64,000 nt of DNA. It comes from Nocardioidaceae bacterium (lineage in GTDB: Bacteria > Actinomycetota > Actinomycetes > Propionibacteriales > Nocardioidaceae). A program made the translations under genes and the position numbers. The notes under the pieces are model-generated. The model was not told where the DNA came from. It saw nothing but the letters and a program-made list of their open reading frames with translations, and did no database searches. Every line of letters starts with the position of its first letter. The first letter of the stretch is position 1. This document shows, piece after piece, positions 1 through 49,556 of this stretch. Location of the stretch: assembly GCA_030447865.1 (NCBI GenBank), contig JAUJOD010000002.1, positions 124,001 through 188,000 of the forward strand. Reading direction: 5' to 3'.

Positions 1-1216
1 CTCCTTGCTGTCGGGTCACCGCGGTGATCATCTCGTGCAGGCGGTCTGCCATCGCGACCGCGAACCGCTCGTCGTTGACGTCGAGGTCAAGCTCGTGCAC
101 CTCGACGTCGCCCAAGGTCTCCGACAACCCGGAGAACAGGGCCTCATCGGCTGCCGGGTCGTGGAACGGCTGTCCTTCGACGGCGATCATCGACACGCCG
201 CCCCGCGGCACGAACAGCACCGTCGGTCCCGACGCCCCGGACAGCTTGCGCCCCACCTCGCGACCGAGCTCGCGGCACTCCTCCGGTGTCGTGCGCATCA
301 GCGTCACCGTCGGGTTGTGCACGTAGAGGTTGCGCCCTTCGAACTGCGACGGCACCGTCTCGCGCGGTCCGAAGTTCACCATGTCGAGGGCGCCCAGCGA
401 GACCACCTGCGGCACGCCAGCACCACCTGCCGCCTCAAGGCGCTCCGGTCCCGCCGACAGCACTCCGCCGACCAGCTCGTCGGCCAGCTCCGTGGTGGTC
501 ACGTCGAGCACGCCGGCCAGGAAGCCGCCGGTCACCAAGGCCTCCATGGACTGGCCGCCCGTGCCGGTGGCGTGGAAGACGAGCACCTCGTAGCCGAGCT
601 CCTCGAGCCGCTCACGCGCGCGGGTGACTCCTGGCGTCGTCACACCGAACATCGATGCGCCGACAAGCGGCTTGTGCTCCATCGGCGGCACCGACGACGA
701 GACCATGCCAGCGATGGCTCCCGCCGCGTTGGTGAGGATCTGGGCCGAGATCGAGTTGATCCCCGCGATGTCGACCACCGAGTACATCATCGTGACGTCG
801 ACGGCGCCGACATAAGGCCGGGTGTCGCCAGAGGCCAGCGTCGAAACCATCAACTTCGGTACGCCGACCGGCAACGCGCGCATGGCCGTCGTCACGATCG
901 ACGACCCGCCCGATCCACCGATTCCGAGCACACCGTGCAGCCGGCCCTCGTCATGAAGCGTTTGCAGCAACGCAGCAGCGCCTCGACCCATCGCTGCGGT
1001 GGCTGCTCCGCGGTCGCCGGCGTAGGCCAGCGCAGCTGCGTCCTCACCAGCGGCTCGAGCGACCTCCTCGCGGGAGATGTCGGGGTCGATCTGCGGCGCG
1101 TACACCCCGACGTCGATGAGCAGCACGTCGACACCGTGCTCCCGCACGCGGTCGCGCAGGAAGGCGTACTCGTGCCCCTTCGTGTCGAGGGTTCCGGCTA
1201 GGACGACCGTTGGCAT
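1..1216 (-). CDS. UPF0261 (Tm-1-like ATP-binding) protein, copy 1, runs off left edge
   Basis: The reading frame is open from an ATG at 1216-1214 to base 1 with no stop, giving at least 405 codons, close to full family length, so only the last few residues are probably missing. The start reads MPTVVLAGTLDTKGHEYAFL, with the family's N-terminal LDTKG motif, and a glycine-rich GIGGSGGSSIVT lies near residue 105. The stop of the upstream kinase overlaps this start (TGATG), so translation is probably coupled. It is a paralogue of the protein at 15276-16511. The family's biochemical role is not established; in fungi it is fused to a PF09370 TIM barrel, and such a protein lies two genes upstream here. 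Confidence 0.88.
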   Translation of the reverse strand, partial: MPTVVLAGTLDTKGHEYAFLRDRVREHGVDVLLIDVGVYAPQIDPDISREEVARAAGEDAAALAYAGDRGAATAAMGRGAAALLQTLHDEGRLHGVLGIGGSGGSSIVTTAMRALPVGVPKLMVSTLASGDTRPYVGAVDVTMMYSVVDIAGINSISAQILTNAAGAIAGMVSSSVPPMEHKPLVGASMFGVTTPGVTRARERLEELGYEVLVFHATGTGGQSMEALVTGGFLAGVLDVTTTELADELVGGVLSAGPERLEAAGGAGVPQVVSLGALDMVNFGPRETVPSQFEGRNLYVHNPTVTLMRTTPEECRELGREVGRKLSGASGPTVLFVPRGGVSMIAVEGQPFHDPAADEALFSGLSETLGDVEVHELDLDVNDERFAVAMADRLHEMITAVTRQQG

Positions 1217-2661
1217 CACACGCTCCTCGCTGCATCACAGTAGACGGCCCGCAGACCTGCACCGTCGACCTGGGGATCCGGTTCCACCGAGACGCCGGCG
1301 TCGAGCCGCCACGCCGTCGCCATGTCCCGCGGTCCGCGCCCGGAGTGCACTGCGGCGGCCTGCACACAGGCGCCCGTGGCCACCAGCTCGGCGTCGGTGT
1401 GGACGGTGATGGGCTCGCCCCACAGGTCAGCGGTGATCTGCCGGTACGCCGCCGAGCGTGCGCCGCCGCCGACCAGGCGGAGCGAGCCGTCCATCTCGAC
1501 GCCGGCACTCCGCAGCGCGTCGACGCCCGACAAGAGCCCGTTGACCACGCCAGAAAAGGCTGCCCTGGCCAGGTCTTCGCGCGTCGTATCGTTGCGCAGT
1601 CCGCGCCACACCCCCGTCGCCTGCGGTCGATCGGGGGTGCGCTCCCCGTCGAAGTAGGGGATGAGGGTGAGGTCCGCCCGGGGCTGCGCCGTAAGCGCCA
1701 TCTCGGTCAGCCGTCTCACGTCCACGTCGAGCCACCGGGCAACGGTCTCGGTCACCTTCGTCGCGTTCAAGGTGGCAACAAGCGGCAGGAAGCCGTCTGC
1801 CGCATCGGCGAAGCCGGCCACGGCGCCCGTCACGTCGCTCGTCGGCGACGTGGCCACCGTGAACGCCGTACCCGACGTCCCCAGCGACAGGGTGACTTCC
1901 CGCGGCGCCATGGCCAGGCCCAGCGCCGCCGCCATGTTGTCTCCCGTGCCCGGCCCCACGACGACGTGGTCACGGAGGCCAAGCTCGACCGCAACGTCGC
2001 CGAGCACAGTGCCGGCCGGCTGTGTCGGTCCCAGCACCGTGGGCAGCTTCGGTAGCCACGACCCCGGGTCGTCGATGACAAGTCCCAGCAGGTCGGCGCG
2101 GTAGCTGCCGTCCACCGGCGACCACCAGCCGGTGCCCGAGGCGTCCCCGCGGTCGGTCACGTGCTCACCGGTCAGCCGCCAGGTCAGCCAGTCGTGCGGC
2201 AGCATCACGCGGTCGACGAGGGCCAGGTGCTCCGGCTCCTTGTCCGCCAGCCACGCCAGCTTCGTGATCGTGAAGCTGGCGACCGGCACCAGCCCGCAGC
2301 GAGCGGCCCACTCACCGGCTCCCAGCCGTTCGCGCAGCGCCGCCGCCTGAGCCGCGGAGGTCGTGTCGTTCCAGAGCTTGGCTGGACGAATCGTCGTGCC
2401 GGCCTTGTCGACCACGACAAGACCGTGCTGCTGGCCGGCGACGGACACGGCGACGACGCGGTCGAGGTGAGCACGCACCTGCGCAAAGGCCTCGACCAGC
2501 GCCGACCACCAGGAGTCAGGGTCCTGCTCCGACACCGGTGGCGACGTCGGCGGATGCGGGGAGCGCCCCGTCGCGACCAACGCGCCAGTCTCCAGTTCCC
2601 GCACCTCGACCTTGGTGGACTGTGTCGAGGAGTCGACGCCGACGACCAGCGGGGCTTTCAC
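1216..2661 (-). CDS. xylB: Xylulokinase-type FGGY carbohydrate kinase
   Basis: A 481-residue FGGY-family sugar kinase, the usual length for xylulokinases. It has the N-terminal phosphate-binding segment GVDSSTQSTKVEV (residues 8-20), the mid-protein GTSGTAFTV loop and the C-terminal ATP-binding LVGGGARSAAYRQI. It should phosphorylate the ketose made by the co-transcribed isomerase, classically D-xylulose to xylulose 5-phosphate. The start is GTG at 2661, 16 nt after the stop of the TIM-barrel gene, and its stop overlaps the next start by one base. FGGY specificity cannot be read reliably from motifs, and the neighbouring genes suggest that the substrate may not be plain xylulose. Confidence 0.88.
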   Translation of the reverse strand: MKAPLVVGVDSSTQSTKVEVRELETGALVATGRSPHPPTSPPVSEQDPDSWWSALVEAFAQVRAHLDRVVAVSVAGQQHGLVVVDKAGTTIRPAKLWNDTTSAAQAAALRERLGAGEWAARCGLVPVASFTITKLAWLADKEPEHLALVDRVMLPHDWLTWRLTGEHVTDRGDASGTGWWSPVDGSYRADLLGLVIDDPGSWLPKLPTVLGPTQPAGTVLGDVAVELGLRDHVVVGPGTGDNMAAALGLAMAPREVTLSLGTSGTAFTVATSPTSDVTGAVAGFADAADGFLPLVATLNATKVTETVARWLDVDVRRLTEMALTAQPRADLTLIPYFDGERTPDRPQATGVWRGLRNDTTREDLARAAFSGVVNGLLSGVDALRSAGVEMDGSLRLVGGGARSAAYRQITADLWGEPITVHTDAELVATGACVQAAAVHSGRGPRDMATAWRLDAGVSVEPDPQVDGAGLRAVYCDAARSV

Positions 2662-44116: not shown

Positions 44117-46123
44117 TCATGTGAGACGGGAACGCTGCCCCCACATCGTGGCCGACAAGGCCGCTTGGGATGCGTCGTGCGGTCGACGAGTTCGTACCGG
44201 CGGCCGCCCCCGCACCGGCTGGTAGCCGTCGAACCGTTGCTCGAGCACCCCCTCGCCACCGGTGAGGTCCGGCAGCTGTCGCTGGAGCTCGTGCAGCCGA
44301 GCTGCGACGAGCCGCGCTTCGAGCCGGGTCAGGTCCCCTCCGGCAGTTTGGGCCAACAGCTCCGCACCCCACCTGGTGATTACCCGCTGTACGGCGGCGG
44401 CGTCATCGGTCGGAACCTCCAGCAGCACCTTCAGCACGGGCTCACACACCAAGGTGCGCGCGCGACCGAGTGCCTGCTGCAGCACGATCGGCGTGAGCTT
44501 GCGGTAGTCATACGAGGTGCTGGTCGGTCCACGCCTCGAGGGTGGCCCGTCCGCGACGGAGTAGGCGCACTCGGTCAGCGTCACCACACAGTCGGTGACC
44601 TGCCAGCCGTACCGGCCGTGCTCGAGTGCCCGCCGCACGTGCTTCTCGATCGCTCCGGCGAAACCCTCGACGCTCTTGAACAAGTACAGCGGCATGTCCC
44701 GCGCCGGCGCCGCGGTGAGGAACGTCAGCCCGGTGCCGGGCTCACCGGGTGCGACACGCAGCCCGATCGTCGCGTGATACGGATTCGCGTCAGTGTTGAG
44801 CCGAAGGACCGCATCTGCGACGCCGCGGGGCCGCTCGACATGAAGCACGCTCGCGTCGGCGAACTCGACCTCGATCCCGTATTCCTCGGCCAGGGTCGCG
44901 GCGAGCACCTCTTGCTGCACTCGGCCGTACAACGACACCGTGGGGAGTCCGTCGGCGCCGGTGCGCACGCCGATCAACGGGTCCTGGTCGGCCAGCTGAG
45001 CCAGCGCCGCGCGCAGGGCGGGGCCCTGCGCGGGGCGTATGGCGGTCACCGACGCCTCCAGGGTTGGCGGGGCGAAGTGGTGCTCGCCGACGCAAGCCGC
45101 GTCGCCGAAGCCGTCACCCACCCGGACATCGGTTAGGCCGCTCAACCGGCCGATCTGCCCAGCACCGACCGTCTCGGCCTGGACCCACCGGCCACGGTCG
45201 AACAGCTGCACTCCGGTGACCTTGCCGGCGCGGCCTGCACCGAGCTCCAGGTGAGTCCGCACTTCCACCGAGCCGCGCAACATTCGGACGTAGGCGATCT
45301 TGTCCCCCGCGGCGCCGCGCTCGACCTTGAACACCCGGCCCGAGGCGGCCCCGCCGCCCTGGTCGGGGGCAGTGGCGGGCAAGAAGGCGGCGATCCCGGC
45401 CATCAACTCGGGAACCCCCGCCCCGGTCGTGGCCGACCCGGCGTACACCGGGTGCAGCAGGCCGTCTCGGACCTGGGCCACGAGGCGGCGGCGCAACACA
45501 GCCGCAGAACATTGGCGTCCCTCGACATAGGCCTCCAGCAGCGCGTCGTCGTGCTCGGCGAGCGCCGCCGTCTCGCGCTCGCTGAACGCGGCGTCGTCGG
45601 GACGGTACGCCGTGAAACCGGCCGCCCGGGTTCCCGCAGCAACTACCTGACCCATCGGCAGCACCGCGGGAGTGAGCCGGCGCCGTACCGCGGCCAGCAC
45701 GGCATCGACGTCGGCGCCGGTCCGGTCTACCTTGTTGACGAACAACAGAGTGGGGACCCCGAGCCGCTGCAGTGCCCGCATCAGGATGCGGGTCTGGGGT
45801 TGGACGCCCTCGACCGCGGAGAGTAGCAGGACGGCGCCGTCGAGCACCCCGAGCACCCGCTCGACCTCCGCGACGAAGTCCGGGTGCCCCGGTGTGTCGA
45901 TGACGTTGACATTCATGCCGGCCAACGGGAACGCAACCACGGCCGCCTTGATGGTGATGCCGCGCTGGCGCTCCAGCGTCAGGGTGTCCGTCTGGGTGGT
46001 CCCGCGATCCACCGAGCCGACCTCGTCGATGACTCCCGCGGCGTGCAGGAGCCGCTCGGTCAGTGTGGTCTTGCCGGCGTCAACATGCGCCAGAATCCCG
46101 AGATTGAGTGAACGTGTGAACAC
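44117..46123 (-). CDS. Translation-factor GTPase of the ribosomal-protection (TetM/OtrA-like) family
   Basis: A 668-residue EF-G-like GTPase. G-domain motifs are LAHVDAGKTTLTERLL (P-loop), QRQRGITIKAA-like switch (ERQRGITIKAAVV), DTPGHPDFVAEVERVL and LFVNKVDRTGADVDAV. Domain order then follows the tetracycline ribosomal-protection proteins (domain II, III, a loop-bearing domain IV with TECAYSVADGPPSRRGPTST, V). GTG 46123 follows AGAGGA. Such proteins dislodge tetracycline from the ribosome; whether this divergent member gives resistance is unproven. It ends near a GNAT and no drug-synthesis genes are close by. Confidence 0.88.
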   Translation of the reverse strand: MFTRSLNLGILAHVDAGKTTLTERLLHAAGVIDEVGSVDRGTTQTDTLTLERQRGITIKAAVVAFPLAGMNVNVIDTPGHPDFVAEVERVLGVLDGAVLLLSAVEGVQPQTRILMRALQRLGVPTLLFVNKVDRTGADVDAVLAAVRRRLTPAVLPMGQVVAAGTRAAGFTAYRPDDAAFSERETAALAEHDDALLEAYVEGRQCSAAVLRRRLVAQVRDGLLHPVYAGSATTGAGVPELMAGIAAFLPATAPDQGGGAASGRVFKVERGAAGDKIAYVRMLRGSVEVRTHLELGAGRAGKVTGVQLFDRGRWVQAETVGAGQIGRLSGLTDVRVGDGFGDAACVGEHHFAPPTLEASVTAIRPAQGPALRAALAQLADQDPLIGVRTGADGLPTVSLYGRVQQEVLAATLAEEYGIEVEFADASVLHVERPRGVADAVLRLNTDANPYHATIGLRVAPGEPGTGLTFLTAAPARDMPLYLFKSVEGFAGAIEKHVRRALEHGRYGWQVTDCVVTLTECAYSVADGPPSRRGPTSTSYDYRKLTPIVLQQALGRARTLVCEPVLKVLLEVPTDDAAAVQRVITRWGAELLAQTAGGDLTRLEARLVAARLHELQRQLPDLTGGEGVLEQRFDGYQPVRGRPPVRTRRPHDASQAALSATMWGQRSRLT

Positions 46124-48237: not shown

Positions 48238-48391
48238 GCTCACCCTCGACGGCACGAGCTGCACCGGGATCGCCCGCGCTGATCTGTTCAGGCGCCTACC
48301 GAAAGTTGCCTCCGGCACTCGGGAAGCGAACACATGCTGCGACGGCCAACCGGCTCGCGGGTGGGTGGTTCTTGCTTCGCTGGTGGCGGAT

Positions 48392-48420
48392 TTTTCATTC
48401 GGGGCGATTGTGCTTAGGGT
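48392..48420 (+). promoter_or_regulatory. Weak sigma-70-like promoter upstream of the c-di-AMP riboswitch
   Basis: TTTTCA at 48392-48397 and TAGGGT at 48415-48420 are 17 bp apart, and transcription would begin near 48427, about 40 nt ahead of the aptamer. The local sequence is AT-richer than its surroundings. The call rests on spacing alone. Confidence 0.3.
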
Positions 48421-48462
48421 GTGTGCTCACCGCGGCCGTTCGCCCGGTACCACAACTGCATA

Positions 48463-48685
48463 ACCAGGTGCGGCAACGCCGAGTCCTGCCCGCCGCCGCC
48501 TGGTCCACATCCTCTACTAACACTCGGGCAGGAGTGGGGGACCCATTTCCTTCGCGGTATCAGCCTTCTAGGACGGCTGAAGCCGCTCGGGGTGAAGTCA
48601 CCTAGGCCGACAACATCGGCTCACCCGGTGACAGAGCACCTTTCAGCTCTAACCCGACAGCTCACTCCACAGGCGTGGAAAGGGA
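48463..48685 (+). promoter_or_regulatory. c-di-AMP (ydaO-yuaA) riboswitch
   Basis: The leader of the Rpf-like gene contains the conserved ydaO blocks in order: GCAACGCCGAGTCCTGCC (48473-48490), GGGCAGGAGTGGGGGACCCA (48526-48545), GGGGTGAAGTCACC (48589-48602) and, at the 3' end, AACCCGACAGCTCACTCC plus AGGCGTGGAAAGG (48651-48683). The aptamer ends about 10 nt before the ATG. In Streptomyces and mycobacteria this aptamer precedes rpf-type cell-wall hydrolase genes and turns them off when c-di-AMP is high. Confidence 0.9.
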
Positions 48686-48693
48686 ACTTCGCC

Positions 48694-49074
48694 ATGCCTT
48701 TGGTTCTTCGCGTTCGACACGCGGCACAGCAGTCACTCTTCGTCACCGTCCTCGTCGTGGCCCTCTTAGCCGCGATGGCCGGCCCGGTGCAGGCCCACTC
48801 CGGCGCGACTCGCTGGGATTGTCTTGCGCACTACGAGTCGACACACCGGTGGCACATCAACACCGGCAACGGCTACTACGGGGGCCTCCAGTTCTCGCTC
48901 TCGACGTGGAAGTACTACGGCGGCCCGAGCTACTCCGGAAACTCGTACCCACATCTCGCCAGCAAGGCGGAGCAGATCGTCATAGCCAAGCGCACGGCCT
49001 TCAAGGGCTGGGCGGGCCGTGCTCCGCAGGGCGGATCGTCTGCCTGGCCCAACACCTGGTACAAGTGCAACTGA
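48694..49074 (+). CDS. Secreted Rpf-like transglycosylase (resuscitation-promoting-factor type)
   Basis: A 126-residue exported protein. Residues 1-34 are a signal peptide (LFVTVLVVALLAAMAGPVQA, cleavage probably after VQA). The lysozyme-like Rpf domain follows: WDCLAHYEST with catalytic Glu48, INTGNGYYGGLQFSLSTWKY, and LASKAEQIVIAKRTAF. Cys43 and the Cys next to the C-terminal Asn may form a disulfide. It cleaves peptidoglycan glycan strands during growth resumption. It has no LysM or other binding domain, so it is a minimal form. Its transcript carries the c-di-AMP riboswitch described above. Confidence 0.92.
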   Translation: MPLVLRVRHAAQQSLFVTVLVVALLAAMAGPVQAHSGATRWDCLAHYESTHRWHINTGNGYYGGLQFSLSTWKYYGGPSYSGNSYPHLASKAEQIVIAKRTAFKGWAGRAPQGGSSAWPNTWYKCN

Positions 49075-49127
49075 GTCTGGCTGAGTCTGACTGAGGGTTT
49101 CCAGGGCAGGCCCGATGAGGAGTCGAG

Positions 49128-49556
49128 ATGACCCACCGCGCCGACAGGCCGCGCTTCCACTTGGCGGTGCCAGTCGACGACCTCGGCGCGGCGAGGGTCT
49201 TCTACGGGGAGTTGATCGGCTGCAACCAGGGCCGCAGCTCTGACTCCTGGGTCGACTGGGACCTACGCGGTCATCAGCTCGTCACCCATCTGGCGCCGCG
49301 CCGGCCGCGAGCGGTGCACAACCCGGTCGACGGGCACGACGTGCCCGTCCCACACTTCGGCCTCATTCTCAGCATTGTCGACTTCCACGAACTTGCTGGT
49401 CGACTGAGGGCGGCCGGGACCACGTTCGTGATCGAGCCGTACCTGCGCTTCGATGGCCAGCCGGGTGAGCAGTGGACGATGTTCCTGTATGACCCGGCGG
49501 GCAACGCGTTGGAGTTCAAGGCTTTCGCCGACGACGCGCAGGTGTTCGCGGTATAG
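49128..49556 (+). CDS. VOC-family (glyoxalase/dioxygenase fold) protein
   Basis: A 142-residue VOC protein: RFHLAVPVDDLGAARVFYGE at the start, VPHFGLILSIVDFHELAGRL in the middle and FLYDPAGNALEFKAFAD near the end, with His and Glu in metal-ligand positions. The ATG follows GAGGAG. Function is unknown; the VOC fold covers glyoxalases, dioxygenases and antibiotic-binding proteins. Single gene, convergent with bioY. Confidence 0.9.
   Translation: MTHRADRPRFHLAVPVDDLGAARVFYGELIGCNQGRSSDSWVDWDLRGHQLVTHLAPRRPRAVHNPVDGHDVPVPHFGLILSIVDFHELAGRLRAAGTTFVIEPYLRFDGQPGEQWTMFLYDPAGNALEFKAFADDAQVFAV

Follow-up and report, generated by a model that had tools for sequence, protein, structure and literature searches.

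Riboswitches for c-di-AMP are known to lie before rpf and other wall hydrolase genes in actinobacteria (PMC9960051, PMC10117811, PMC9569102 and PMC6009663, each in its available text), and the available text of PMC9960051 leaves open the mode of action of those actinobacterial members that have no canonical terminator. A locus in a 64,000-nucleotide stretch of Nocardioidaceae DNA (here called the window) raises the same question for a small Rpf-type gene: through which element of its leader would c-di-AMP reach the expression of the enzyme? The pairing of riboswitch and rpf is itself already published for actinobacteria, and this locus adds one member. Our answer, which we hold to be probable, is that a c-di-AMP riboswitch from an actinobacterial subclass occupies the region and represses the translation of a small secreted muralytic enzyme of the Rpf type. 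An RF00379 aptamer with helices P1 and P2, a 3' pseudoknot, an additional helix that we name P0 and a Shine-Dalgarno sequence inside a pseudoknot strand are all supported by the sequence and by comparison among loci (Table 1).

The sequence-only reading of this DNA had placed a ydaO-yuaA riboswitch before an Rpf-like gene, and this was borne out. A cmscan search of the 64-kb window with Rfam 15 returned a significant match to RF00379 (c-di-AMP, ydaO/yuaA) over the full length of the model, scoring 50.8 bits where the gathering score is 38 bits (E 7.5e-9), and the next gene carries a PF06737 domain. That reading had also put the end of the aptamer about 10 nt before the start codon, in agreement with a last pseudoknot base at 48683 and an ATG at 48694-48696, and the position at which it began, 48463, is the first base of P0. 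The window has in common with RF00379 the helices P1 and P2, two sequence blocks (GGGGA and AACCCG-CAGCU) and a pseudoknot that joins the last hairpin's loop to the strand following P1. It differs in having a P2 of 9 bp with a 32-nt apical insert where Rfam has a P2 of 3 bp, in the extra helix P0, in a core A in place of U, in the use of a pseudoknot strand as a Shine-Dalgarno sequence and in the lack of a visible terminator. The putative promoter upstream of the aptamer has no match to the sigma-70 consensus.

Table 1. Coordinates of the features of the riboswitch-Rpf locus (positions in the window)
Feature	Position	Strand	Basis or remark
Putative -10 promoter element TAGGGT (TANNNT)	48415..48420	+	TANNNT at about the same place in orthologs L125-L130, by eye
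P0 5' strand ACCAGGTGCGGC (ACCAGGUGCGGC), 5' leader	48463..48474	+	free fold, covariation
P1 5' strand ACGCC	48476..48480	+	locus comparison; A48476-C48480 with G48672-U48676
P2 5' strand TCCTGCCCG	48484..48492	+	covariation; last G can pair in P2 or P0
P0 3' strand GCCGCCGCCTGGT (GCCGCCGCCUGGU), inside P2 apical insert	48492..48504	+	free fold, duplex, covariation
RF00379 c-di-AMP riboswitch match	48505..48689	+	cmscan; Rfam 5' boundary misplaced
P2 3' strand CGGGCAGGA	48525..48533	+	locus comparison and covariation
Conserved aptamer block GGGGGACCCA	48536..48545	+	aligned to Rfam consensus
Hairpin GAGC-loop-GCTC; loop CCTTTC (48639-48644) is the pseudoknot 5' strand	48634..48649	+	comparison
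Conserved core AACCCGACAGCTCAC, A-type	48651..48665	+	Rfam match and locus comparison
P1 3' strand GGCGT	48672..48676	+	pairs with 48476-48480
Pseudoknot 3' strand GAAAGG, the Shine-Dalgarno sequence (AAAGG)	48678..48683	+	10 nt before ATG; covariation
Rpf-type transglycosylase, 126 aa, signal peptide and one PF06737 domain (48808-49008)	48694..49074	+	profile search

Comparison among loci drew on a Nocardioidaceae family sample, a sample from other families of the phylum and a fresh, class-wide sample. The family sample yielded 117 cores in 124 loci, and 112 distinct loci once four duplicates and one locus cut by a contig end had been set aside. The fresh sample held 86 loci, 26 of them taken automatically and 60 chosen before their sequences were seen; the 60 were picked by family, new families first, and longer Rfam matches were preferred, these being the ones expected to be of the type, here called A-type, whose core reads CCGACAG (T-type cores read CCGTCAG). 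Families not sampled before supplied 71 of the 86, and the previously sampled families f3 and f4 the others (six of the 60 and nine of the 26). One fresh locus had no core, and 10 of the other 85 had no locatable 5' element of P1 and P2.

The 5' end given by Rfam, 48505, is off by about 29 nt, and the true 5' strands of P1 and P2 lie upstream of it. Rfam's own placement of these strands was rejected because its alignment contains non-standard pairs there and the true strands are found further upstream, where the window and related loci carry the consensus CGCCGAGUCC. Both helices of the RF00379 model are present in the window, though not at Rfam's positions. P2 joins U48484-G48492 to C48525-A48533, and its strands change in step from locus to locus: UCCUGCCC/GGGCAGGA in the window, UCCUGUCC/GGACAGGA in L042 and L048, and UCCUACCC/GGGUAGGA in L047. 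Over 91 distinct loci (13 of the 117 having been left out for want of a locatable P1/P2 5' element) the mean P2 energy was -17.23 kcal/mol against -10.58 for permuted strands (sd 0.33), with 0/5000 permutations as low, a count that, like those that follow, is not a strict probability because the loci are related. For P1, pairs in a fixed register were standard in 90.7% of cells over 71 A-type loci.

P0 is absent from the RF00379 consensus. It pairs the 5' leader with a strand in the P2 loop, and the free fold of the region gives it 12 bp and one bulged C in the window; a duplex calculation begun at 48464 recovered 11 of the 12. Among 71 distinct A-type loci the two strands co-vary (-23.35 against -18.69 for permuted strands, sd 0.44, 0/5000), and the adjacent upstream segment in these loci, taken as a control, gave no signal (-18.02 against -17.94). 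A flanking stem no more than 3 nt from both ends was found in 43 of the 71, where permutation gave a mean of 8.2 and a maximum of 15. When the register was fixed and unfitted, 52.0% of pairs were standard against 42.7% on permutation (sd 1.6), highest at shift 0; the percentage is lower because registers vary among loci. The 20 A-type loci outside the Nocardioidaceae scored 19.1 against 15.0 by themselves (0/5000). With the statistics unchanged, 31 fresh A-type loci gave -24.65 against -19.87 (sd 0.67, 0/5000), and 20 of them had the stem near both ends (permuted mean 3.9, maximum 7). Strand pairs elsewhere include CGUCGGACGG/CCGUCCGACG (L334), UCACGCGG/CCGCGUGA (L345) and CAGCUGGAG/CUCCAGCUG (L224). 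By an ungapped criterion P0 is weak or away from the ends in 28/71 and, among the fresh loci, 11/31 A-type loci; the window falls in this group because of its bulge.

The T-type loci present a different picture. Pairing between leader and insert showed no covariation in 75 of them (-20.12 against -20.85), and only 4/75 had the flanking stem. Their control segment, expected to be null, reached -20.01 against -19.17 (75/5000), so small deviations mean little; 44 fresh T-type loci gave a weak signal for leader and insert (-22.08 against -21.14, 175/5000), with the stem near both ends in six of the 44 (permuted mean 2.7, maximum 6). P0 tends to occur together with long P2 inserts, with A as the core base and with a C placed two bases ahead of the last hairpin. 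We also considered P0 as a site for a protein on the DNA and rejected this, as its strands co-vary instead of being conserved. No description of P0 or of the A-type subclass was found in the available text of PMC9960051, PMC10117811, PMC5393176, PMC9569102, PMC6009663, PMC2864571 and PMC7657543.

On the likeliest reading of these comparisons, P0 and P2 would together form an H-type pseudoknot serving to brace the aptamer on its 5' side. The third loop measures at least 9 nt in 66 of the 70 loci with a flanking stem, which suits coexistence of P0 and P2 in such a fold; it is negative in the other four, which were discounted post hoc as false matches. The 5' strands of P1 and P2 are exactly what the P0 hairpin encloses; this hairpin is stable alone (-20.2 kcal/mol) and is present in the free fold of the leader, features that would befit an anti-aptamer: in the ligand-free state the hairpin between leader and P2 insert would trap both 5' strands, block P1, leave P1 and the pseudoknot open and turn the gene ON. 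This arrangement is less likely than the bracing pseudoknot, and we regard it as doubtful. Mutually exclusive switch helices usually share strands, whereas in the window P0 has no more than a single base in common with P1 and P2; the third loops have the length that an H-type P0/P2 pseudoknot needs, and switches of the CCGTCAG type mostly do without P0. Another candidate for a general anti-aptamer, pairing of GGCG in the 3' strand of P1 with CGCC just before the ATG, was rejected: it occurs in the window, L035, L037 and L041 and is absent from L036, L038, L039 and L040.

Whatever the part played by P0, the bracing pseudoknot being the reading that we prefer, the 3' end of the aptamer is where the ribosome would be met. 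The CCUUUC loop of the last hairpin pairs with GAAAGG directly after P1, as in the RF00379 pseudoknot. Over the 112 distinct family loci this pairing scored -10.24 kcal/mol against -8.25 on permutation (sd 0.20, 0/10000), and offset controls within the same loci ranged from -6.77 to -7.71. The 69 loci from other families of the phylum gave -10.40 against -7.86 (0/10000), and two single families among them 23/10000 (17 loci) and 0/10000 (15 loci). In the fresh sample 85 of the 86 loci were scored (-10.71 against -9.57, 0/10000), with 17/10000 for the A-type alone and 0/10000 for the T-type alone; the signal was weaker in eight named Rpf loci (121/10000). In the crystallised ydaO RNA (PMC5393176, available text) the loop CUCCUUCG and the 3' strand CGAAGGAG stand, by eye, at the same places as the two strands of the window.

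The 3' strand of this pseudoknot overlaps the Shine-Dalgarno core by at least 3 nt in 37/47 CCGACAG-type and 20/62 CCGTCAG-type loci, as judged by script against the called start (3/112 loci had no callable start and were left out). The called start lies 34-51 nt after the core in 108/109 loci of the family sample and 30-51 nt after it in 53/69 of the phylum sample, with the proviso that the script certainly misplaced some starts (L031, called at 79 nt, and probably those of L113 and L207). The Shine-Dalgarno sequence of the window is weak, its duplex with the anti-Shine-Dalgarno sequence being worth -5.5. A purine-rich pseudoknot 3' strand is found as well in families with, judged by eye, apparent terminators, so its likeness to a Shine-Dalgarno sequence may be a by-product. 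Inspection by eye of the phylum loci without a called start in that range found a stem and T run instead in families f25 and f28, as it did in L207, and terminators of this form seem to follow the same aptamer in L207, L211, L213 and L235; both platforms may thus occur within one phylum.

The terminator platform is a trait of the Firmicutes type and not of the aptamer family. Between aptamer and ATG the window has no terminator-like site and hence no platform of that type, and the 10 nt that separate the last pseudoknot base from the start codon are too few for a terminator. The Streptomyces rpfA riboswitch (St-Onge et al. 2015; St-Onge and Elliot 2017, as cited in PMC10117811 and PMC9960051) shares with the window a c-di-AMP riboswitch before an Rpf gene and OFF logic, and differs in that early transcription termination on c-di-AMP binding is reported for it in PMC10117811; the available text of PMC9960051 adds that it was in vitro, with RNA polymerase from E. 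coli, that these terminated transcripts were observed. Attenuation of this kind, published for S. coelicolor rpfA (PMC10117811), would have the ligand end transcription early in the leader or the first part of the coding region, with occlusion of the Shine-Dalgarno sequence secondary. A terminator-like match at 48799-48817 in the coding region would fit, and two matches were found in 48330-49160 where shuffled sequences gave a mean of 0.5; that at 48799, however, has a weak T tail and lies inside the gene. Together with the short distance to the ATG and the behaviour of C. glutamicum nlpC, this makes attenuation unlikely at the present locus. The nlpC leader is described in PMC9960051 as a c-di-AMP OFF switch under which reporter protein falls while the transcript shows no c-di-AMP-dependent change; the leader itself lowered the transcript level whatever the level of c-di-AMP. 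It shares with our proposal translational OFF control of a wall hydrolase, and its authors suggested as a possibility that CTCC pairs with GGAG of the ribosome-binding site in a pseudoknot (PMC9960051). It differs in the gene controlled, and neither a P0 nor a comparative test was found in the available text of that paper.

We infer that c-di-AMP binds at this locus, and infer likewise the direction and the level of control. The likeliest mechanism would be a translational OFF switch in which a fold stabilised by c-di-AMP hides the ribosome site. At high concentration the ligand would bind the aptamer, so that P1 and the pseudoknot become stable; GAAAGG would be held by the CCUUUC loop, the 30S subunit could not start and little Rpf would be made. 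When c-di-AMP falls the pseudoknot would open and Rpf would be translated. Riboswitches of preQ1 class II and SAM class II also have a ligand-stabilised pseudoknot that contains the Shine-Dalgarno sequence; the placing is alike, and aptamers and ligands are different. Nested folding does not reproduce the aptamer: the free fold reaches -109.9 kcal/mol against -102.6 with P1 and P2 imposed, energies in which pseudoknot and ligand are uncounted, and in the free fold part of the Shine-Dalgarno sequence is already paired with other sequence. No ON state is argued from the nested folds.

An aptamer that departs from the consensus might have lost its ligand. The window has A where the Rfam consensus has U in the core, and its last hairpin is preceded by CA and not UA. 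These two positions tend to change together, CCGUCAG with UA and CCGACAG with CC, CA or CG: the dinucleotide is TA in 66/98 core-T loci and CC, CA or CG in 76/91 core-A loci (a tally that includes duplicates and covers the 190 loci, out of 194, whose hairpin could be located). The joint change possibly reflects a base triple near a ligand pocket. It could also be expected of an aptamer that has degenerated or been re-purposed and has lost its binding of c-di-AMP, a reading that we consider highly improbable: A-type cores occur widely (in 36 of the 85 loci of the fresh class-wide sample), P1 and P2 are conserved in A-type loci and the pseudoknot co-varies, and the same core stands before Streptomyces Rpf genes (L164, L166). 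The leader RNA of Streptomyces rpfA, which may share that core, binds c-di-AMP in vitro (PMC10117811, available text).

The controlled gene had been read as a bare Rpf domain, and in part it is one: there is a single PF06737 (Transglycosylas) domain, matched by residues 39-105 with 78.3 bits against a cut-off of 27, but the N-terminal stretch reads as a signal peptide. Relatives of solved structure by sequence are RpfB, RpfE and RpfC. Residue E48 corresponds in the alignment to the glutamate of CEAGGNW in RpfB and is invariant in 16 aligned Rpf proteins; we take the equivalent glutamate to be the catalytic residue of Rpf. The usual Rpf cysteines, one beside this glutamate and one after WP, are missing, Y47 and T121 standing in their places. 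C43 and C125 are each four residues from a usual position, in opposite directions, and are invariant in eight aligned sequences (the window and seven orthologs, L035-L041); a fair guess from the alignment is that they form a relocated disulfide. The AlphaFold model, with a mean pLDDT of 75.1, is too weak to judge the relocated cysteines. The two NCBIfam equivalogs for Rpf/RpfC, NF046106 and NF046107, stayed below cut-off (76.3 against 180 and 72 against 200 bits). A variant with moved cysteines in place of the usual CE...WPxC pair is also listed for L125-L130. Two Streptomyces Rpf proteins among the named ones also have a riboswitch core (L164, L166); they differ in being longer and in keeping the usual CE cysteine.

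A riboswitch core lies directly upstream in 8/8 of the aligned sequences, so the link of riboswitch and Rpf is conserved among them. The closest named relatives by Rpf are Nocardioidaceae MAGs, and the protein of isolate YX3bin1 is 92% identical. A core was found by script in 8/80 named Rpf loci and in none of the other 72; Rfam, run on 20 of the 80, gave five matches (L125-L129), and L130, which has a core by script, scored below the Rfam gathering score.

The source genome (3.1 Mb in nine contigs) has RF00379 in three places: the window, L002, where the riboswitch precedes an NlpC/P60 gene, and L001 (C3, gene 940-1497, minus strand), where it precedes a protein of 186 aa that matches nothing in Pfam or NCBIfam. 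A close relative of that protein stands behind a riboswitch in a genus relative (L101). In L015, L008, L011, L018 and L029 family riboswitches precede, by eye, apparent glycoside hydrolases and not peptidoglycan hydrolases. The genome also encodes a DAC domain, that of c-di-AMP synthase; a search for the DHH domain (PF01368) gave no match there and was positive in 13 of 14 control genomes, and the c-di-AMP phosphodiesterase may be of another type, for example AtaC. A second Rpf gene (C3:1179860; L274, C3:1178000-1181500) lies within an open frame of 509 residues, and no riboswitch core occurs on the gene's strand in the 3.5 kb around it; it appears as a larger protein with a C-terminal Rpf domain after a proline/alanine-rich stretch. 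Elsewhere in the window, at 44117-46123 on the minus strand, a 668-aa open frame resembles, by eye, an elongation factor G or ribosomal-protection-type GTPase.

Taken singly, the locus is a variation on a well-known riboswitch class. The comparisons also admit a wider reading, which we hold with about even confidence: Actinomycetes may possess a subclass marked by the CCGACAG core, a long P2 with apical insert, a P0/P2 H-type pseudoknot and a pseudoknot strand that is the Shine-Dalgarno sequence, in which the ligand would directly shut off translation of secreted wall hydrolases with no separate platform. If this is true, the published termination model for Streptomyces rpfA would be incomplete. 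It would offer a testable answer, namely that the pseudoknot of the aptamer itself masks the site at which ribosomes start on the genes of muralytic enzymes, and in vitro constructs of these RNAs should include both the corrected 5' boundary and P0. That c-di-AMP gates cell wall remodelling here, as had been proposed from the sequence, would follow by analogy to C. glutamicum nlpC and Streptomyces rpfA; Rpf is linked to resuscitation from dormancy, so a connection between c-di-AMP and Rpf translation would be of general interest.
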